This document shows, in pieces, positions 19,968 through 30,385 of a DNA stretch of 64,000 nucleotides; the stretch's first letter is position 1, and the number at the start of each line of letters is the position of its first letter. The notes under the pieces are model-generated. The model was not told the origin of the DNA, did not search any database, and saw only the letters and a program-made list of their open reading frames with translations. Both the position numbers and the translations under genes were made by a program. The stretch is from Paenibacillus sp. FSL H8-0537. Lineage in GTDB: Bacteria; Bacillota; Bacilli; Paenibacillales; Paenibacillaceae. The DNA lies in the NCBI RefSeq assembly GCF_038051995.1, contig NZ_CP150290.1, positions 1,289,501 through 1,353,500 on the forward strand, given 5' to 3'.

Positions 19968-22439
19968 ATGTCATATATTGCACATATTCGGGAAAAAGAC
20001 GGCAAAATTCAAACCGTCCACGAGCATTTGAAAGAGGTAAAGGAAGGCTGCGAGCAGCTTGGAGGCAAGATTGGAGCCAGTCATCTGGCGGGACTGGCAG
20101 GTTGGCTTCATGACTTGGGCAAAAATACGACCGCTTTTAGGAATTATATTCAGCTAGCCGTAGCGGCGGCCCATGATAAGGATGTGAGGGCGCCTAAAAG
20201 AGGCTCAGTCGATCATTCGACCGCAGGCGGCAGACTGATTTATCGCAGGTACCATAAGAAAAGTTCGAAGCAGGCCGAGAAAATGGCAGCAGAATGGATC
20301 GCTAACTGTATTATTTCCCATCATCAAGGGCTTCGGGATCTTATTGATCCGAGTAAAACATCACCCTTTCTAAAAAGAGTGGATGAGCAGAAGGACGCGG
20401 AAATTGAACAGGGCTATGAGCAAGCGAGTGCGGTGTTCTTCGGGCAGTATACCGAAGCCGAGCTGGACGCATATTTTGCCAAGGCTGCCGCCGAGCTGAA
20501 ACAGCTTGTAGCGGTTATGAAGAAATATAAATTGCCGAGAATTACCTGTTCGCTGCTGATCAAGTATATTTTCAGCTGCCTGATTGATGCGGATCGGACC
20601 AATTCGCGGCAGTTTGAAGAGGAGGAGGCGGTAGAGCCAGCGGAGGATCATGGTCCATTTTTCAAGAGAAGCTATGAGGCTTTAATGAGGAAGCTGGACG
20701 AAATGGACGAAGCGGAGGACGCCGACCATCCGATTAACCGACTGAGACGGGAGATGTCGCTGCAATGTGATGCTTTTGCGCTGCGCCCGTCAGGTATTTA
20801 TACGTTGTCGATTCCTACCGGAGGCGGCAAGACGTTGGCAAGCTTACGTTATGCTTTAAAGCACGCGATCGAGACAGGGAAGCAGCGAATTATCTATATC
20901 GTTCCATACACGACCATAATTGAGCAGAACGCGCAAGAAATTAGGGATATTTTGCAGGAGCACGATATGATTTTGGAGCATCATTCGAATGTCATTGAGG
21001 AGCCTGATCCGCCAGAAGATGCGGCCGAGGCCGAAGCTTATGATGCTCGGCGCAAGCAGATCAAATTGGCGAGAGATACGTGGGATCGCCCGATTATTTT
21101 TACAACGATGGTTCAGTTTCTGAATACGTTTTATGCGAAGGGCACGCGGAATGTACGGAGGCTGCACCAGCTTTCGGATGCGGTCATTATTTTCGATGAG
21201 GTACAGTCTGTACCGATTAAGTGTATTTCTTTGTTTAACGCGGCATTGAATTTTCTACATGCCTTTGGACGCTCCAGCCTGCTGCTTTGTACGGCGACGC
21301 AGCCTGCTCTGGATGGAGTGAAGCATCGGCTACATTTGCAAGAAGATGCTGAAATGATCGAAAATCTGGATGAAGTAGGTCGGAGCTTTAAGCGGGTGGA
21401 GGTTGTAGATCGAACGACTCCGAGCGGCTGGAAGGCAGATGAACTGGCGGATTTTGTGCTGGACAGGATGGATGAGATCGACAGTACGCTGGTGATATTG
21501 AATACGAAGTCGGCTGTGCGCAAGCTGTTCGCTGAGCTGGAGGAGCGTCAGAAGTCAGGAGACTGTGATGCACGGCTGTTTCATCTAAGCACGAATATGT
21601 GCGCGGCGCATCGGAAGGACGTGCTTGAAAAGCTGATAAAAGCACTCGCTGCGGAAGAAAAGGAACGGGTCATTTGCGTCAGCACGCAGCTTATTGAAGC
21701 AGGCGTGAACATTAGCTTTGAATGTGTTGTTCGCTCCCTTGCAGGACTGGACTCTATTGCGCAAGCAGCGGGTAGATGCAATCGACATGGGAAGGATGCT
21801 GTTCGGAGCGTTTATATAATTAAGTCTGCGGATGAGGTGCTGACGCATTTGAAGGAAATTAGCATCGGTGCGGAGCAGACACAGCGCATATTGGACGATA
21901 TGAGGGACGATCCGAAGCTGTATGGGGGAGAGCTGCTGTCGAAAGCGGCGATGCAGGCTTATTTTAAATACTACTATGCTCTGATTGAAAATAAAATGCA
22001 GTACCACGTAGAGAAGCTTGATGAAAATATTTTTGAGCTGCTGGAGCAAAACGATAAATTTGCTGCTGGATATAAAGGGAAGCATGGGAAGCTGCCTGAG
22101 TTGATTAGCTTCTCGGCACTCGCTACAGCGGAGCAGTATTTTGAAGTCATTAGTAGTGCGGCGCGAACGGTACTGGTTCCTTATAACGAGGAAGCTAGAG
22201 AGTTGATTCTTGACTTGAACGGCGAGCTGAAGGCAGGAGAACTGGGCGAGCTACTGCGTAAGCTTCAGCCTTATGTTGTCAATATTTATGAGAATGAGTT
22301 TAGGCAGCTTGAAAAAAATGGTGATGTTCAATATCTGCTGCATGGCGAGGTGCTGGCATTGAGGGAAACAGCCTATTCTGAGCAGTTTGGTGTGGAGACG
22401 GGTGGCGAAGGGGAATGGTCGTCAGCGATCATTGGATGA
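19968..22439 (+). CDS. cas3: CRISPR-associated helicase/nuclease Cas3 (type I-C)
   Basis: This 823-aa effector nuclease-helicase degrades the DNA strand displaced by Cascade. The N-terminal HD nuclease has HEHL near residue 18, the WLHDLGK metal motif near 48 and DHSTAGG. The SF2 helicase has Walker A SIPTGGGKTLASLRYA, the DEVQ box in IIFDEVQSVP, and motif VI QAAGRCNRHG. Length and order are standard for a fused HD-helicase Cas3. AGGAGGCG precedes the ATG. In many I-C loci cas5 follows directly; here 680 bp intervene. Confidence 0.95.
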   Translation: MSYIAHIREKDGKIQTVHEHLKEVKEGCEQLGGKIGASHLAGLAGWLHDLGKNTTAFRNYIQLAVAAAHDKDVRAPKRGSVDHSTAGGRLIYRRYHKKSSKQAEKMAAEWIANCIISHHQGLRDLIDPSKTSPFLKRVDEQKDAEIEQGYEQASAVFFGQYTEAELDAYFAKAAAELKQLVAVMKKYKLPRITCSLLIKYIFSCLIDADRTNSRQFEEEEAVEPAEDHGPFFKRSYEALMRKLDEMDEAEDADHPINRLRREMSLQCDAFALRPSGIYTLSIPTGGGKTLASLRYALKHAIETGKQRIIYIVPYTTIIEQNAQEIRDILQEHDMILEHHSNVIEEPDPPEDAAEAEAYDARRKQIKLARDTWDRPIIFTTMVQFLNTFYAKGTRNVRRLHQLSDAVIIFDEVQSVPIKCISLFNAALNFLHAFGRSSLLLCTATQPALDGVKHRLHLQEDAEMIENLDEVGRSFKRVEVVDRTTPSGWKADELADFVLDRMDEIDSTLVILNTKSAVRKLFAELEERQKSGDCDARLFHLSTNMCAAHRKDVLEKLIKALAAEEKERVICVSTQLIEAGVNISFECVVRSLAGLDSIAQAAGRCNRHGKDAVRSVYIIKSADEVLTHLKEISIGAEQTQRILDDMRDDPKLYGGELLSKAAMQAYFKYYYALIENKMQYHVEKLDENIFELLEQNDKFAAGYKGKHGKLPELISFSALATAEQYFEVISSAARTVLVPYNEEARELILDLNGELKAGELGELLRKLQPYVVNIYENEFRQLEKNGDVQYLLHGEVLALRETAYSEQFGVETGGEGEWSSAIIG

Positions 22440-22443
22440 AAAG

Positions 22444-22472
22444 TGAAAAACCCACCTACGGGTGGGTTTTCA
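22444..22472. terminator. Bidirectional terminator after cas3 / end of minus-strand crRNA-like RNA
   Basis: AAAACCCACC-TACG-GGTGGGTTTT is a perfect stem, followed on the plus strand by C-A-rich DNA and on the minus strand by TCACTTTT. It can end cas3 transcription and also the leftward pseudo-crRNA transcript. Confidence 0.75.
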
Positions 22473-22575
22473 AATACAAATACAAATGCAAAAACATAAA
22501 TTTCAATCCACACTTTTAAAAGTGACAACTTCCAACTGCTAAATCGGTTATTTTCAAAGATGTAATTGTAGTGTA
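22472..22575 (-). ncRNA. Candidate CRISPR-like regulatory RNA (degenerate repeat plus pseudo-spacer)
   Basis: On the minus strand, 22529-22500 reads GTTGTCACT...AGTGTGGATTGAAA. It keeps the stem-loop (CACTTTTAAAAGTG) and the 3' handle GTGGATTGAAA-like end of the array repeat while most stem bases differ. After it comes a pseudo-spacer (TTATGTTTTTGCATTTG...) of about 28 nt, then the terminator. Possible -10 elements (TACACT/TACAAT) lie about 35-40 bp upstream on this strand. The pseudo-spacer pairs with 22679-22670, which has a TTC PAM. This layout is that of CreR/CreA RNAs. Existence of the transcript is inferred. Confidence 0.55.
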
Positions 22576-22614
22576 GCACAGGATACTTTTTGCAAACAAT
22601 CAGATGATAAAATA

Positions 22615-22643
22615 TTGATTAAAATGGTAATTTGAGGTAATAT
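22615..22643 (+). promoter_or_regulatory. Promoter in the cas3-cas5 gap, adjacent to the pseudo-spacer target
   Basis: TTGATT (22615-22620), 17 bp, TAATAT (22638-22643). Transcription would begin near 22650, inside the predicted pseudo-protospacer (about 22645-22679, TTC PAM on the minus strand at 22682-22680). Cascade bound there would block this promoter. Confidence 0.5.
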
Positions 22644-22739
22644 TTAAGTTTTTTTTCATTCAAATGATAAAAACCATAAGAAGGTATTTAAGGGTAATGG
22701 TTTAAGCCGACTTTTCGTCCAATGAGGAGGTGAGTAAAT

Positions 22740-22943
22740 ATAGCAGATAATCGCAGAAGTCTAGTTGATGCTGAAACGTCCATTTTTCGCGAAATACTTA
22801 CTGTAGTAATGGAGACAGCATATTTAAATGAAGCTAGGCTTTCCCTTTATAGTTCTGCAACTGGTTATAGGCTCAGTGCAATTAAAGCATGGCGCAAAGT
22901 CTACGAACAAGTCTGTGGAGAAAGCTTATCGGCAAGGTATTAA
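22740..22943 (+). CDS. Candidate small protein between cas3 and cas5 (non-canonical start)
   Basis: An open frame of 67 codons ends at TAA 22941. GAGGAGGTG lies 8-9 nt upstream of an ATA codon at 22740, the only plausible site of initiation at that ribosome binding site; the first in-frame ATG is at 22809 (44 aa). The product (ADNRRSLVDAETSIFREI ... WRKVYEQVCGESLSARY) is not recognised; it lacks a signal peptide or Cys/His clusters. It follows the promoter at 22615 and precedes a terminator-like hairpin at 23014. It may be a true small gene, a decayed gene, or only part of a regulatory RNA. Confidence 0.3.
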   Translation: MADNRRSLVDAETSIFREILTVVMETAYLNEARLSLYSSATGYRLSAIKAWRKVYEQVCGESLSARY

Positions 22944-23013: not shown

Positions 23014-23067
23014 TTTCGTGAAGGCTGCGGGCAGTTCATCCAAGTCTTCACGAAGCTAAGATTTTTT
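23014..23067 (+). terminator. Terminator-like hairpin upstream of cas5
   Basis: TTCGTGAAG ... CTTCACGAA with a 22-nt loop, then TTTTTT at 23062-23067. A possible cas5 promoter overlaps its right arm (TTCACG, 17 bp, TATATA at 23072). It may separate the small unit in the gap from the cas5 operon or attenuate read-through. Confidence 0.45.
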
Positions 23068-23119: not shown

Positions 23120-23842
23120 ATGCGCAACCAAATTGAATTTGAAGTATCCGGCAAATACGCTCTTTTCACAGACCCGTTGACCAAAATCGGAGGAGAGAAG
23201 TTCAGCTACCAGGTTCCTACTTATCAAGCTCTGAAAGGGATTGTGGAATCGATATATTGGAAGCCTACAATTATTTGGTACATCCACGAGGTTCGTATCA
23301 TGAATGTCATTCAGACAGAGTCGAAGGGCATTCGACCCATTGAATATAATGGAGGCAATACGCTTGCTTATTATACTTACTTGAAGGATGTCAAATATCG
23401 GGTTCGAGCCTATTTCGATTTCAATCCTCATAGGGAGGATCTCGTCTATGACCGCAACGAAAATAAGCATCATAATATCGCCAAACGTTCGGTTCAGGCG
23501 GGAGGGCGCAGAGATATTTTTCTCGGGACGCGTGAATGCCAGGGCTATGTGGAGCCTTGCGATTTTAACGAAGGCAAGGGCTTTTATGACGAGGTGCCAG
23601 AAGTAGACTTTGGTCATATGGTGCATGGCATCAGCTATCCAGATGAAACAGGCAGGCCGGAGAGGGAGACAAGGCTGTGGCCAGTCAAGATGGAGCGCGG
23701 CATTATCCGCTTCATTCGCCCAGAAGCTTGTGAACTGACTCGCAAAACAGGCGAAGGTGTTGCAAAAATTTTCGGCTCCGAAAATATGGAGTCTGTCGAC
23801 CAACTGCATGAAGAGCTATTTGCAGAGGGGGAGAAGGCATGA
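23120..23842 (+). CDS. cas5: Cas5 (Cas5d), type I-C crRNA-processing endonuclease
   Basis: This 240-aa RAMP protein replaces Cas6 in type I-C: it cleaves pre-crRNA within each repeat and stays bound to the 5' handle. The N-terminus [39 protein letters not shown] is written here in part only: [13 protein letters not shown] and [12 protein letters not shown] are the Cas5d hallmarks. AAAGGAGAATAGG precedes the ATG. It overlaps cas8c by 4 nt. The array repeat with its ATTGAAAC end fits Cas5d processing. Confidence 0.93.
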
Positions 23843-25767
23843 GCTGGCTCGCAAATTTGAGCAAAACCTATGATAATCATACGGATGCGATAGGGAATTT
23901 TGAGAAGAAAAGAAATGGCCGTGAATATGCGCTTATCCCGATTTCACATACGACACAAAGTGCGCATATTGAGGTGATTTTGAATGGGAAGGGCGAATTT
24001 TTAAGAGCGAAGGTGATTGAGAAGGAAGAAGGAAGCACGATCATTCCTTGCACCGAGGCTGCGGCAAGCCGGACAAGCGCGCCTGTTCCCTATCCCCTGT
24101 TCGATAAGCTTATGTATGTCGCTGGCGACTATGAGCAATATGTTGGCGAAGTGAAGAAGCATACGCCACATGCAAATTATTTGGAACAGCTGCGTACATG
24201 GTGTACGTCTGCTTATTCCAATCGCAAGGTGGAAAGTGTTTATCAATATTTGCAGAAAGGCACGCTGATAGCGGATTTAGTAGAGTATAAGGTGCTATGG
24301 ACAGACATGCAAGGCAAGCTGCTGGATAAATGGGTGCAGGAGGAAGGCGATGAGAGCAAGGAGAAGCCAGCTATTTTCAAAGTGATTGCCTCTGATCAAA
24401 GCTCGGCTTTTGTGCGATTCGCTGTACAGATTCCGGGAGATACCGAGCCAAGGCTATGGCGGGATCGGGAAGTTCAGCAGTCCTTTATTGATTTTTATAA
24501 TGAGCAGCTTGCAGAGACGGACTTATGTTATGTGACAGGCGAGCAGCTTCCTTATGCGGACAAGCATGCTTCGCGTATTCGTAACTCTGGTGATAAAACG
24601 AAGCTGATTTCAGCCAATGACTCAAGTGGCTTCACGTTTCGTGGTCGGTTTCGGACGAGTCGGGATGCGGCCTCCGTCAGCTACGAGGTATCGCAGAAGG
24701 CGCATAATGCGCTGAAATGGCTGATTGATCGGCAATCCTTCACCCTCGACGGCAAAGTGTTTCTCGTATGGGGAACAGATCGGCTTGAAGTGCCAGACCC
24801 TGCGGAGGATTTGTTTGACTATCTGAAGGAGGAAGAGGACGATTCGTCGGCTGGAGATATGGCGCATAGGGAGCATGCTCTTGAAGTAAGAAAGGCGCTT
24901 AGCGGCTTTCGTTACGATGGCGAATATAAATCAAATGTCGTTATTATGACACTTGATGCGGCGACGCCAGGACGGCTGTCGATTGTCTATTACCGAGATA
25001 TGAACCGCGAGCTGTTCATGAATCAATTGCAGCATTGGCATGAAACCTGCTTTTGGCGCCATAGGTATCGCAAAAACGAAAATGACAAATATGTAGCTTT
25101 TACAGGAGCGCCAGCGACAAAGGATATTGCTTTCGCCGCTTATGGGTCGCGGGCAAGTGACAAAGTGGTGAAAGGGCTGCTGGAGCGAATGCTGCCCTGC
25201 ATCGTAGATGGTCGTCCAATCCCAATAGATATTGTTCGAAGTGCGATTAGTCGAGCTTCCAATCCGGTAGGCATGGAGCCATGGGAATGGGAGAAAACGC
25301 TAAGCATCGCCTGTGCGCTGGTCAACAAAACAAAAGAGAAGGAGGGCTTCCGAGTGAGCCTGAATAAACAATTGGATGATCGAAATTATCTGTTCGGCAG
25401 AATGCTGGCGATTGCCGACGTGCTGGAGAGACGTGCATTAGGAAGAGAAGAGAAACGGGCAACGAATGCAGTCCGATATATGAACGCTTTTGCCCAGCGT
25501 CCGGGACGCACATGGAGTATTATCCAATCCAACCTTCAGCCCTATCAGGCGCGAATGGGGACGGATGCGAGATATTACAATGGTCTGCTTGATGAGGTGG
25601 GCTCGATGCTGAAGCCTGAGGATTTTACGGATGCTCCGCTTAGCGGGCTGTATCTGCTTGGTTTTTACAGCCAGCGTCATGACCTTTATACGAAAAAAGA
25701 TAAAGGCGACACAACGCAGGGGCAAGACAGCGAGCAAGATAACGATCAGGATGATACAGAGGAATAG
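23839..25767 (+). CDS. cas8c: Cas8c (Csd1), type I-C large subunit
   Basis: This 642-aa large subunit of the I-C Cascade recognises the PAM (5'-TTC in studied I-C systems) and helps open DNA. Recognisable stretches are [16 protein letters not shown] near the N-terminus, [18 protein letters not shown], and [16 protein letters not shown] mid-protein. The C-terminal ~137 residues form the small-subunit region, which has its own translation start. The acidic, Gln-rich tail is probably disordered. The gene is translationally coupled to cas5 and lies 52 bp before cas7. Confidence 0.93.
25354..25767 (+). CDS. cas11c: Cas11c small subunit from an internal start in cas8c
   Basis: AAGGAGG (25339-25345) lies 8 nt before an in-frame GTG at 25354 inside cas8c. 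This would give a 137-aa protein beginning (M)[17 protein letters not shown]. Independent translation of the small subunit from within cas8 is established for type I-C. The well-spaced ribosome binding site is direct sequence support that this locus does the same. The product would line the belly of Cascade beside the Cas7 backbone. Confidence 0.75.
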   Translation: MSLNKQLDDRNYLFGRMLAIADVLERRALGREEKRATNAVRYMNAFAQRPGRTWSIIQSNLQPYQARMGTDARYYNGLLDEVGSMLKPEDFTDAPLSGLYLLGFYSQRHDLYTKKDKGDTTQGQDSEQDNDQDDTEE

Positions 25768-25819: not shown

Positions 25820-26701
25820 ATGAGCGTACTTGACCATAAAATTGATTTTGCCGTTATTCTGTCCGTCCGAAATGCCAATCCGAATGGCGACCCATTAAAT
25901 GGGAACCGTCCAAGGCAAACCTATGAAGGACTTGGCGAGATTTCTGATGTGTGCCTAAAGCGCAAAATCCGCAACAGGCTGCAAGACATGGGAGAAGCGA
26001 TTCTCGTCCAGTCGGATGAGCGCCGTGACGATGGGTACCGCAGCATTAAAGAACGTGTAGATGCGAATGCCGATGTTCAAGAGTATGCTAAGGGAAAAAA
26101 GCAAAACAATGAGCTATACGCACAGGCGGCCTGCAAGACATGGGTTGATGTGCGGAGCTTCGGTCAGGTGTTTGCCTTTAGCGGCGGGGCGGATGCGTCA
26201 TCGGGTGTATCCGTGGGCGTTCGCGGGCCTGTCTCGATTCATACAGCGCTTAGCGTCGAGCCGATTGCCATTACAAGCACGCAAATTACGAAAAGCGTCA
26301 ATTCGGTGACGGGCAAGGACCCGAACAAGAAGGGTTCCGATACGATGGGGATGAAGCATAGGGTGGATTTTGGCGTGTATGTTGTTTATGGCAGCATCAA
26401 TACACAATTGGCGGAGAAAACTGGCTTTACGAAGGACGATGCGGAGAAGATCAAACAAGCACTTATTTCTCTTTTTGAAAATGATACCTCATCCGCGCGC
26501 CCGGACGGCAGCATGGAAGTTCATAATCTTTTCTGGTGGAAGCACCAGTCCAAGCTTGGACAATATTCTTCAGCGAAGGTGCATCGCTCCTTGAAAATTA
26601 AATTGAAAGATGACGTAGTCGAAGGGAAATCGATCGACGACTACACTTGGACAATTGAGCCTCTTGAAGGCTTGGAGCCCCAAAGATATGTGGGACTATG
26701 A
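25820..26701 (+). CDS. cas7: Cas7 (Csd2), type I-C backbone subunit
   Basis: This 293-aa RRM-fold subunit coats the spacer part of crRNA in multiple copies. The N-terminal VRNANPNGDPLNGNRPRQT is the Csd2 signature, followed by SDVCLKRKIRNRLQ and later GMKHRVDFGVYVVYGSI. The length is typical. GGGAGAG lies 10 nt before the ATG. The gene end overlaps the cas4 start by 14 nt. Confidence 0.94.
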   Translation: MSVLDHKIDFAVILSVRNANPNGDPLNGNRPRQTYEGLGEISDVCLKRKIRNRLQDMGEAILVQSDERRDDGYRSIKERVDANADVQEYAKGKKQNNELYAQAACKTWVDVRSFGQVFAFSGGADASSGVSVGVRGPVSIHTALSVEPIAITSTQITKSVNSVTGKDPNKKGSDTMGMKHRVDFGVYVVYGSINTQLAEKTGFTKDDAEKIKQALISLFENDTSSARPDGSMEVHNLFWWKHQSKLGQYSSAKVHRSLKIKLKDDVVEGKSIDDYTWTIEPLEGLEPQRYVGL

Positions 26702-27347
26702 CGAAGAAGATTTTCTAATGCTCTCTGGCATTCAGCATTTCAACTTTTGCCGAAGGCAATGGGCGCTTATCCATATTGAGCAGCAATGGGAAGAAAATGT
26801 CCGCACCGTTGAAGGGGCACATTTGCACCGCAAAGCCGATCAGCCCATGCTGCGGGAGAAACGCGGGGACAAGCTCATTGTGCGCGCGCTTCCCGTACAA
26901 TCACGGCGGCTGGGCATTTCCGGCATATGCGATGTCGTAGAGTTTATACGAGATAGCTCAGGAGTTCCACTGGCGGGAGAGGAAGGGTTATACCTTCCGT
27001 ATCCCGTGGAATACAAACGCGGCAAGCCGAAGCGGAATGATTCCGACCGCTCGCAATTAGTAGCCCAGCTCATTTGTCTGGAAGAGATGTTAATGTGCGA
27101 ACTGTCGATGGGCTATCTCTATTATGATGAAATCAAGCATCGGGTGGAGGTGCCTGTCTCCGAAGCGGATAAAACCAAGGTCAAGCAAAGCTTGGAAGAA
27201 ATGCGCCACTACTATGAGCGGAACCATACACCACGGGCGAAGCCGGGACCGCATTGTCAGAGCTGCTCTTTGAATGTCGTTTGTTTGCCAGAAATGCTGG
27301 AGCGAAAACCCGTTTCAAGCTTTATTGAAAGCAGGTTATACGAATGA
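26688..27347 (+). CDS. cas4: Cas4 adaptation nuclease
   Basis: This RecB-like nuclease of about 219 aa with an iron-sulfur cluster trims prespacers and helps select those with a PAM. Cluster cysteines are visible in FNFCRRQW and CQSCSLNVVC. Nuclease residues are in GICDVVEF and PVEYKRGK. I place the start at ATG 26688, which has TTGGAG upstream and an N-terminus matching the family; an earlier ATG at 26655 lies deep in cas7. The gene overlaps cas1 by 4 nt, consistent with a Cas4-Cas1 complex. Confidence 0.9.
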   Translation: MWDYDEEDFLMLSGIQHFNFCRRQWALIHIEQQWEENVRTVEGAHLHRKADQPMLREKRGDKLIVRALPVQSRRLGISGICDVVEFIRDSSGVPLAGEEGLYLPYPVEYKRGKPKRNDSDRSQLVAQLICLEEMLMCELSMGYLYYDEIKHRVEVPVSEADKTKVKQSLEEMRHYYERNHTPRAKPGPHCQSCSLNVVCLPEMLERKPVSSFIESRLYE

Positions 27348-28375
27348 AAAAGCTGCTGAACACACTGTTTGTTACGATGCCGGATACGTATTTATCGCTC
27401 GATGGCGAAAATATTGTTATAAAGCGGGACGACGAAATTGCCGGACGCTATCCGCTGCATAATTTGGAGGGAGTCTGTACCTTTGGTTATGCGGGAGTCA
27501 GTCCAGCTCTTATGGGGAAATGCGCAGAAAATAACATCGGACTGACCTTTATGACCCGCAATGGACGATTTTTGGCACGGGTCGTCGGTGAGGATAAAGG
27601 GAACGTTGTGCTGCGCAAGGAGCAGTACCGAATTTCCGATGATGAGCGGCGAAGCGCTATTTTTGCCCGAAATATGATTTTGGGAAAAGTGTATAACAGC
27701 AAGTGGGTGGTTGAACGAGCCTTGCGGGATCATGCCCTCCGTATGGATATCGAGCGAATGAAGCAGGTCAGTGCTTCGCTATCGGAGACGATGAAGCTTA
27801 TTCGCGGCGTGGAGCAGCTGGATATTTTGCGCGGGCTGGAAGGGTCGGCTGCTGTGCAATACAACTCGGTGTTTGACCAGTTGATTTTGCAGCAAAAGGA
27901 GAAGTTTTTTTTTCATGGGCGAAATAAGCGTCCTCCGCTGGATAATGTCAATGCGTTGCTTTCTTTCACTTATTCTCTGCTTGCAAAAGATGTGACAGCC
28001 GCGCTGGAGTCCGTGGGACTGGACGCTTACGTCGGGTTTCTGCACCGGGACCGTCCGGGGAGAGCTTCGCTTGCTCTGGATATGATGGAGGAGCTGCGGA
28101 GCGTGTATGCTGACCGTATGGTGTTGTATCTGATCAACAAGAAGGTCGTTAACGACAGCGGCTTCGTGAAAAAAGAAAATGGAGCCGTCATCATGGACGA
28201 TGACACGAGGAAAGCGGTGCTCAAGGCATGGCAAGAACGCAAGCAGGAGAAGATTATGCACCCCTATTTGAACGAAAAGATAGCTTGGGGGCTTGTTCCT
28301 TACGCCCAGGCCTTATTGCTTGCGAGGCATATTCGTGGTGATTTGGACGAATACCCGCCATTTTTCTGGAAGTAG
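27344..28375 (+). CDS. cas1: Cas1 integrase
   Basis: This 343-aa metal-dependent integrase inserts new spacers at the leader end. The conserved Glu lies in LRGLEGSAAVQYNSVF; the His and Asp lie in GFLHRDRPGRASLALDMMEEL. NALLSFTYSLL is a further family motif. Start ATG overlaps the cas4 stop (ATGA). It is followed 8 bp later by cas2, making a complete adaptation module. Confidence 0.95.
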   Translation: MKKLLNTLFVTMPDTYLSLDGENIVIKRDDEIAGRYPLHNLEGVCTFGYAGVSPALMGKCAENNIGLTFMTRNGRFLARVVGEDKGNVVLRKEQYRISDDERRSAIFARNMILGKVYNSKWVVERALRDHALRMDIERMKQVSASLSETMKLIRGVEQLDILRGLEGSAAVQYNSVFDQLILQQKEKFFFHGRNKRPPLDNVNALLSFTYSLLAKDVTAALESVGLDAYVGFLHRDRPGRASLALDMMEELRSVYADRMVLYLINKKVVNDSGFVKKENGAVIMDDDTRKAVLKAWQERKQEKIMHPYLNEKIAWGLVPYAQALLLARHIRGDLDEYPPFFWK

Positions 28376-28383
28376 GTGTTCAT

Positions 28384-28674
28384 ATGCTCGTATTAATAAC
28401 GTATGATGTGAGTACATCAAGCAAGGAAGGGCGTAGAAGGCTCTCCCGAGTAGCGAAAACCTGTCTGAATTACGGTCAGCGGGTGCAGAACTCCGTATTT
28501 GAATGTATTGTAGATGCGACGAAGTTTCGCCAACTGAAGTATGAATTGGAGGAGCTCATTGATAAGCAGACGGATAGCCTGCGCTTCTACAATTTGGGTG
28601 ATAATCACAAAAGCAAGGTAGAGCACATCGGTGCAAAAGAAGCCTATGATATGGAAGCTCCGCTTATTCTGTAA
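28384..28674 (+). CDS. cas2: Cas2 adaptation subunit
   Basis: This 96-aa ferredoxin-fold protein bridges two Cas1 dimers during spacer integration. LVLITYDVST (Asp 8) and SVFECIVDATKFRQLK are family signatures. The length is typical for I-C. The ATG is 8 bp after cas1. It is the last cas gene before the leader. Confidence 0.95.
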   Translation: MLVLITYDVSTSSKEGRRRLSRVAKTCLNYGQRVQNSVFECIVDATKFRQLKYELEELIDKQTDSLRFYNLGDNHKSKVEHIGAKEAYDMEAPLIL

Positions 28675-28880: not shown

Positions 28881-30385
28881 GTCGCACTCCGTATGGAGTG
28901 CGTGGATTGAAACGTTGTGGAACTGACACACCATAAAAATAACCAAGTCGCACTCCGTATGGAGTGCGTGGATTGAAACTATAAGGGTTCTTCTTTTTTT
29001 TGATTTGAAGTGAAGTCGCACTCCGTATGGAGTGCGTGGATTGAAACAAGTATGACCGCCACAAGGATGTCAAGGAAGCTTCGTCGCACTCCGTATGGAG
29101 TGCGTGGATTGAAACCGTTGATCAAATTTAATTACGGCTTGTCAGATATCGTCGCACTCCGTATGGAGTGCGTGGATTGAAACGCATGATGCGAACGAAA
29201 TCTGTTCGCATGCCTTTGTCGCACTCCGTATGGAGTGCGTGGATTGAAACTTCCGATCCACTCTCCAGCAACTTTTCCTGCAAGTCGCACTCCGTATGGA
29301 GTGCGTGGATTGAAACGTCGAGTTGTCTAAAGAGACTAGCCAAATGTTTATGTCGCACTCCGTATGGAGTGCGTGGATTGAAACCTACTGATCGTGTAGC
29401 TTTGCAAACTTTTGATTGTCGCACTCCGTATGGAGTGCGTGGATTGAAACACACATGTCTTGTTTTATCTCCGGAAGCTACGCAGTCGCACTCCGTATGG
29501 AGTGCGTGGATTGAAACTTTAAAGTAAAGCTCGTAGACATTACTTGTACTAGTCGCACTCCGTATGGAGTGCGTGGATTGAAACGCCACTACGATAAACA
29601 AAATAACGAAGATGGTGAGTCGCACTCCGTATGGAGTGCGTGGATTGAAACAATAAACAACTGCTGCTTGGCAGTGAGTACGTGGGTCGCACTCCGTATG
29701 GAGTGCGTGGATTGAAACAGCATGATGACAAAAAGAAAACCGAAATCATCCTTGTCGCACTCCGTATGGAGTGCGTGGATTGAAACAGCCGGATAAAGTC
29801 GAGAGCATTAATTTCGACACGTCGCACTCCGTATGGAGTGCGTGGATTGAAACATCAAGTAATATGTATAATTGTTCTACAAAGTCTGTCGCACTCCGTA
29901 TGGAGTGCGTGGATTGAAACTGGGAGTAGAGTTCAAGAGGAACAAAGATAGTTATTGTCGCACTCCGTATGGAGTGCGTGGATTGAAACAATTAGTTGAA
30001 TGAAATCCAAAGGTGAGCCATTCGTCGCACTCCGTATGGAGTGCGTGGATTGAAACTTCGTTGACAATAGTTTTATTTGCTGAACATGCGTCGCACTCCG
30101 TATGGAGTGCGTGGATTGAAACCACTTACGGATCGCCGTATACCAATCGAATATCGTCGCACTCCGTACGGGGTGCGTGGATTGAAACGCCGTTGCTGTA
30201 TGTTAACTCTAACTTGTCGCCCGTCGCACTCCTTACGGAGTGCGTGGATTGAAACAGTATGCTGGATGCTGTTGCGACTGTAACCCTAAATCGCACTCCG
30301 TATGGAGTGCGTGGATTGAAACTGAGCTCTTGGATCATTATGGTCACAAATGTTAATGTCGTGCTCCTTATGGAGCGGATGAAAC
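28881..30385 (+). CRISPR. Type I-C CRISPR array, 23 repeats and 22 spacers
   Basis: The repeat is 33 bp, GTCGCACTCC...GTGGATTGAAAC, with an internal palindrome CGCACTCCGTATGGAGTGCG. Spacers are 33-36 bp. Repeat starts: 28881, 28947, 29015, 29083, 29151, 29218, 29284, 29352, 29418, 29485, 29552, 29619, 29686, 29754, 29821, 29888, 29957, 30024, 30090, 30156, 30223, 30290, 30358. The first 19 are identical. Those at 30156 and 30223 carry compensating-type stem changes, 30290 has A for the first G, and 30358 is shortened and degenerate. This places the leader end on the left. Reading frames over the array (NPRTPYGVR repeats) are artefacts. Confidence 0.97.

Follow-up and report, generated by a model that had tools for sequence, protein, structure and literature searches.

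A probable CreR-type guide RNA gene between cas3 and cas5 of a type I-C CRISPR locus in Paenibacillus

The stretch of DNA analysed here, referred to as the window, comprises 64,000 nucleotides (nt) of Paenibacillus sp. FSL H8-0537 (contig NZ_CP150290.1, positions 1,289,501 to 1,353,500) and carries a type I-C clustered regularly interspaced short palindromic repeats (CRISPR) locus, in which cas3 is followed by a gap of 680 nt (cas3 stop at 22439, cas5 start at 23120), by the genes from cas5 to cas2 and by the CRISPR array. On the minus strand of this gap, inside the cas locus and outside the array, lies a repeat-derived element (22529–22446) that is very probably the creR gene of the locus, the RNA of which would guide the I-C Cascade to the start of its own operon in a negative feedback.

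On the minus strand, the element begins with GTTGTCACTTTTAAAAGTGTGGATTGAAAT, which is 30 nt long and related to the 33-nt array repeat GTCGCACTCCGTATGGAGTGCGTGGATTGAAAC. A preliminary description of the same DNA had taken this part for a diverged copy of the array repeat, and direct comparison confirms it: TGGATTGAAA is identical in the array repeat and in the ectopic repeat, the stem is kept by different bases and the 5′ handle is intact. The repeat is followed by a 28-nt pseudo-spacer and then by an intrinsic terminator, as had also been described; the terminator has an 11-bp stem, and the terminator scan returned two nested hairpin matches at 22471–22446, where 0.3 were expected in shuffles. 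The predicted fold of the creR RNA has two main hairpins (z −2.17), and the window copy matches a covariance model of the element with E = 6.7e-11, being itself among the 28 training sequences. A scan against Rfam gave five matches up to E 1, every one below the gathering score.

The partner of the pseudo-spacer is found in the same gap. At 22682–22680 the minus strand reads TTC, the protospacer-adjacent motif (PAM), and then TTATGGTTTTTATCATTTG, which matches spacer positions 1–5, 7–10 and 16 and mismatches positions 6 and 11–15; pairing in the window ends after nt 10, too short for interference. The match at nine core positions next to the PAM, with a mismatch at position 6, agrees with the earlier claim and is the sole such site in the window, no second TTC site in the 64 kb reaching 8/9 core matches. 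The preliminary description had called for a shuffle test of chance PAM-plus-seed matches, and 9/9 core positions next to TTC arose in only 0.15% of 2000 dinucleotide shuffles of the 587-nt stretch from the repeat to cas5. The PAM-plus-seed pattern TTCTTATGNTTTT occurs four times in the 7.0-Mb genome, the target site included, and the reversed-pattern control once.

For the comparison with relatives, 90 I-C-type loci were collected by Cas5 similarity, ten of them from 51 genus genomes and the others being the best 80 of 414 named loci from the genome collection; cas3 lies upstream in 90/90, and the gaps are identical within L004/L012, L006/L015, L009/L049 and L083/L091. The criterion for selecting loci was the handle of a repeat on the minus strand, sought in the 1 to 1.4 kb upstream of cas5; the target was not used for the choice. 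The handle was present in 31 loci, and reorientation of six reversed loci added L006, L008, L009 and L011. The exclusions were L082 and L090, where the handle is a chance match within cas3; L006, L009 and L064, which duplicate or nearly duplicate other loci; and L056 and L060, in which GTC/GTT does not precede the handle. The 28 loci that were left form the test set, and for the count of presence and absence a wider scan contributed L020, L022 and L040, the handles of which have one mismatch. A TTC-flanked target lies in the same gap in all 28 repeat-selected loci, with 9/9 core matches in 27 and 8/9 in L035, and the excluded loci L056 and L060 also have one. Guides match their own targets at a mean of 13.4 of 14 positions, compared with 9.0 when guides are swapped between loci, and 0 of 100,000 permutations was as good, a count that is not a strict probability, as the tested loci share kinship.

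In these 28 loci, positions 1–5, 7, 8 and 10 match in every case, positions 9 and 11 in 27, position 6 in five, position 12 in nine, positions 13–15 in 25–26, position 16 in 21 and positions 17 and 18 in 12, the counts being lower further on except at position 24 (13); pairing is at background level beyond nt 16. Pooling gave 92 loci with cas3 and cas5 and 62 distinct guide/target pairs, in which positions 1–5, 7–11 and 13–15 match in 55–62, position 16 in 47, position 6 in nine and position 12 in 17; this set was kept for a core of at least 8 and is hence biased upwards, the unbiased per-position figures being those of the 28 loci. The per-position pattern is that of type I Cascade pairing, and complementarity that falls away after nt 16 is too short for interference in the family as well. 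Compensatory changes are found in both hairpins of the element. The preliminary description had also proposed an alignment of cas3–cas5 gaps across related loci, and in this comparison repeat, seed, target and PAM do co-vary; the targets in 28/28 loci, the permutation result and the pattern in the 62 pairs likewise support its suggestion of a guide resembling CreR and CreA. The element might instead be an array remnant or a terminator hairpin accompanied by a chance T-rich match, the gap being AT-rich and the seed T-rich; however, the shuffle rate and the conservation over 92 loci argue against such a coincidence; at the family level the swap test contradicts it, and it appears extremely improbable.

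Table 1. Features of the type I-C locus and of the cas3–cas5 gap (window coordinates)
Feature	Position	Strand	Remarks
cas3, 823 aa	19968..22439	+	Pfam Cas3_HD, DEAD, Cas3-like_C_2; gene upstream of the gap
creR intrinsic terminator	22446..22471	-	11-bp stem, T tail
creR pseudo-spacer TTATGTTTTTGCATTTG..., 28 nt	22472..22499	-	seed = first 11 nt (22499-22489)
creR ectopic (pseudo-)repeat	22500..22529	-	stem CACTT/AAGTG, 3′ handle TGGATTGAAAT
Candidate promoter TTGATT-17-TAATAT	22615..22643	+	from the preliminary description; weak
Protospacer TTATGGTTTTTATCATTTG	22661..22679	-	adjoins PAM
PAM TTC	22680..22682	-	
Strong Shine–Dalgarno sequence GAGGAGGTGAG and 67-codon open reading frame (ORF)	22725..22943 (ORF 22740-22943)	+	ATA = likely start; related to one helix-turn-helix of IS3-type OrfA
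cas5 (I-C)	23120..23842	+	PF09704
cas8c (Csd1)	23839..25767	+	PF09709
cas7	25820..26701	+	PF05107
cas4	26655..27347	+	PF01930
cas1	27344..28375	+	PF01867
cas2	28384..28674	+	PF09827
CRISPR array, 22 repeats of 33 nt	28881..30322	+	

The presence of the guide follows the length of the gap. A guide with a TTC target was found in 36/37 loci with a cas3–cas5 gap of at least 167 nt and, in that gap, in 0/53 loci in which it is shorter, every one of these having been scanned; when identical gaps are counted once, there are 35 long-gap and 51 short-gap loci. The covariance model, built from 28 copies in a set slightly different from the 28 tested loci, matched 79/394 family genomes at E ≤ 0.01 (many weaker matches among those fetched being without a target), 18/398 class genomes at E ≤ 1e-4, including the window and G196, and 4/398 phylum genomes, including the window. 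In L182, a phylum match from outside the class, a 13/14 pair accompanies cas3 and cas5; L183 and L184 have none. A TTC target with a core of 9, or with a core of 8 and at least 12/14, accompanies 44 of the 48 family matches at E ≤ 1e-6 (the misses being L095, L128, L129 and L137), and 14 of 16 further class matches have such a target (the misses being L167 and L168). A further 16 weaker family matches that were fetched (L138–L153) include seven with a core-8/9 pair (L140, L141, L144, L145, L148, L151 and L152) and nine with none. Guide/target pairs are also present in named loci of Bacillus, Brevibacillus, Cytobacillus and Heyndrickxia.

Some members of this wider set differ in form. In L141 and L152, guide-like repeats with another stem (CAGAT...ATCTG) have 13/14 targets, with no match to the cas3 or cas5 of the window in the fetched stretch. 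L145:1582–1718 is a second creR-like guide of G322, located beyond an apparent cas2 and array, and its 14/14 target lies some 300 nt 5′ of an ORF of 205 aa that matches nothing in Pfam; it is possibly a cargo-controlling guide. L136 has a full-length-type repeat and a spacer with a 14/14 TTC target nearby.

Several observations weigh against a creR gene with the role proposed above, some across the family and others in the window. L042, with a gap of 169 nt, is the long-gap exception without a guide, and the three nearest Cas5 relatives of the window (97, 91 and 88% identical) lack the module, their gaps being 42, 113 and 17 nt; since these relatives are short-gap loci, the module has been gained or lost recently in the window lineage. 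For the guides of L095 and L168 the gap holds no target, and each of their own genomes has 0 exact TTC-plus-seed sites elsewhere; they are regarded as orphan CreRs. L128, L129 and L137 match the covariance model and have no good pair. Upstream of cas3, three short-gap loci (L027, L075 and L080) have pairs that resemble a guide and its target. Those of L027 (core 8, 13/14) and L080 (14/14, with two near-identical sequences in the array region) are taken as array spacers, paired by chance or duplication; the pair of L075, in which the last array unit provides the guide, is the convincing one. As an observation in its own right, L075 has a full-length-type repeat with a 14/14 TTC target upstream of cas3. 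A guide at the array end upstream of cas3 was considered as an alternative arrangement and rejected: of 33 loci with a handle there, the spacer of the last unit reaches 2–7/9 in 32 and 9 only in L075.

Also to be counted against this role is the candidate promoter at 22615–22643 (TTGATT-17-TAATAT) of the preliminary description. The hexamers are present as written, but they score 8/12 by manual count, below the threshold of the promoter scan, and are no better than chance, the region holding one promoter-like site, fewer than the shuffle mean of 2.7. In addition, the window pair is the weakest of the 62 distinct pairs (10/14, with mismatches at 11–15), CATTTG after the seed is 2 nt out of step between guide and target, and position 11 is mismatched. 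In haloarchaeal CreA the seed comprises positions 1–5 and 7–11, each of the ten being needed and positions 6 and 12 not (PMC8501985), and these mutational data imply that position 11 should matter in the window. The family pairs match the PAM and seed positions 1–5 and 7–11 at the cas transcript start, and the window lacks position 11. Pairing has slipped in the window, so that repression here may be weaker than in the relatives. The window copy might even be a decaying relic of a real family, its pairing too poor to repress, as the mismatches, the shift as after an indel and the three close relatives without the module would allow; however, the handle, stem, terminator and PAM are all intact, as are nine core positions, and a 9/9 match next to TTC is seldom met with; we regard a relic as rather unlikely.

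The targets fall into two classes. The protospacer is on the plus strand in 43/62 pairs, usually as ATATAAT, the guide reading an apparent −10 box, and on the minus strand in 19/62, the class to which the window belongs; in the short-gap loci of the minus class, the PAM is the complement of GAA in the Shine–Dalgarno stretch, for example ATATAAGAAAGGAGG in L016 and L019, the latter being a P. lactis locus with a full pair. In the plus class, A stands at guide position 6 in 4/43 and at target position 6 in 33/43. Our proposed reading is that position 6 is unread by Cascade and that avoiding A there would spare the guide gene a TATAAT of its own.

The distance from target to cas5 bears on which gene such a guide would control. 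It exceeds 300 nt in 19/62 pairs and is at most 223 nt, mostly at most 130 nt, in the other 43; in the window it is 440 nt, with cas5 downstream and the small ORF between them. ORFs of 35 codons or more with a Shine–Dalgarno match of at least 5 are present in 14 of the 19 long-distance regions, compared with 2.1 expected from shuffles, and ORFs with a match of at least 7, an ATA start being allowed, in eight, compared with 0.1 expected. In the window ORF, ATA follows a strong Shine–Dalgarno sequence, as it does in the IS66 TnpA-like ORF between target and cas5 in L135. Six of the ORFs match transposase helix-turn-helix families, namely those of IS3 OrfA (L008, L023, L026 and L158) and IS66 TnpA (L020 and L135): L008, L023 and L026 match HTH_Tnp_1 above its cut-off; L008, L023 and L158 match an IS3 transposase model in its OrfA part, without reaching the cut-off set for the full-length model; and L020 and L135 match IS66 TnpA above its cut-off.

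The ORF of the window is related to that of L015/L006, which in L015 lies directly 3′ of the targeted Shine–Dalgarno sequence. The two are 46% identical, with codon-position identities of 76, 67 and 35%, a pattern suggestive of constraint at the protein level. Weak similarity further links the window ORF to an IS3-type OrfA in G003 (second half of 184 aa; 39%, E 4.4e-4) and to an OrfA in G047 (37%, E 0.003), and its relatedness rests on these two matches, the hhalign comparison with the IS66/IS3 ORFs being unconvincing (best E 0.011, probability 4%). Neither Pfam (E up to 1) nor NCBIfam (E up to 0.1) gave a family match for the window ORF. Since it has a single match in the genome, it is no recent insertion sequence present in many copies. 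In the protein search, the P. algorifonticola ORF itself was the only match. Closer to cas5 and upstream of it, a 9-bp inverted repeat, TTCGTGAAG...CTTCACGAA, is located at 23015–23054, and a very similar stretch is present in L004, a locus without the creR module.

These ORFs raise the alternative that the guide acts mainly on a small first ORF, a toxin or a regulator, in the manner of CreTA/CrePA, rather than on the cas genes. The enrichment of ORFs with a Shine–Dalgarno sequence, the transposase matches and the codon-position identities speak for this. However, in the 43 pairs with the shorter distance cas5 is usually the first gene, and the interposed ORFs differ by locus, so that captured insertion-sequence debris fits too; we consider control of the small ORF unlikely to be the main function. 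A combination is put forward tentatively for the long-gap loci, where CreR might gate a two-layer circuit, the first gene being a solo helix-turn-helix protein exapted more than once, and from several insertion-sequence families (IS3 OrfA, IS66 TnpA), to serve the CRISPR operon as a further regulator or as a guard of the CreP kind, with the ATA start in the window keeping its output low. The shuffle control of ORFs and Shine–Dalgarno sequences raised our estimate of such a circuit slightly, and it is still doubtful.

Returning to control of the cas genes by creR, the RNA, once transcribed, would comprise a single hairpin that derives from the repeat and carries the I-C 5′ handle, then a short guide and the terminator, and would load into the I-C Cascade (Cas5–Cas8–Cas7). 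Seed-only pairing would then lead Cascade to the TTC-flanked site at the start of the transcript into cas5-cas8-cas7-cas4-cas1-cas2, where the bound complex would block transcription, pairing that ends by about nt 16 probably being too short for cutting. The negative feedback would be expected to relax once CRISPR RNAs (crRNAs) from the array, or anti-CRISPRs, take up Cascade.

CreRs, or cas-regulating RNAs, are generally known as two-repeat mini-arrays. They were reportedly described by Liu et al. in 2023 (Cell Host Microbe 31:1481). A survey of standalone repeats, mostly of type I, is said to have been made by Shmakov et al. in 2023 (Nucleic Acids Research 51:8150), with spacers partly matching promoters of cas or cargo genes, and may list I-C cases. 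Our literature search, outside which the studies of Shmakov et al. and Liu et al. lay, found no account of an I-C CreR or of guide-RNA control of I-C cas genes.

According to the accounts covered, a CreR is a crRNA-like RNA that guides the effector to the cas promoter by limited complementarity and represses the cas genes (PMC13131331, PMC12737573; mentioned briefly in PMC12948488), and CreRs act in subtypes I-B, I-E and V-A (review PMC13131331). The element described here would share with them the crRNA-like RNA, the limited complementarity and a site at the cas transcript start, but it belongs to subtype I-C, in which Cas5 processes the crRNA (PMC10651486), has one repeat and a terminator, and has targets at the −10 box or in the 5′ untranslated region at the Shine–Dalgarno sequence. 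With CreA of the haloarchaeal I-B system CreTA it has in common the TTC PAM and a seed of positions 1–5 and 7–11 with 6 and 12 free, and CreA of H. hispanica is likewise one pseudo-repeat with a terminator (PMC8501985). CreA represses an RNA toxin, whereas here the usual downstream gene is cas5 and pairing usually runs to nt 15–16. No CreT-like toxin was identified here, no rare-codon toxin analysis having been made; compared with CreTA and CrePA, the window has a small helix-turn-helix ORF between target and cas5. The available parts of the CreA accounts PMC8501985 and PMC9458426 contain no I-C. Racr, phage RNA anti-CRISPRs including RacrIC1 that are encoded by viruses and plasmids (PMC10651486), resemble the element in having a solitary I-C repeat unit outside an array; however, no target is described for Racr in the available part of that article, whereas the present element does not stand apart from the cas genes, but lies between cas3 and cas5 with a conserved target. 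Taken together, the comparisons support its assignment as a CreR-type guide of subtype I-C, the demonstrated subtypes in the review being the three named above.

In conclusion, type I-C is described in an abstract as a very common CRISPR subtype, and the presence of the proposed loop in 36/37 long-gap loci and in the gap of 0/53 short-gap loci makes guide-RNA control of I-C cas genes directly testable. The 62 guide/target pairs are a natural record of the positions read by Cascade. If the proposed role is true, these elements would provide I-C CRISPR interference with natural guides of the seed-only kind, and anti-CRISPRs against the I-C Cascade would be predicted to raise cas expression in these bacteria.
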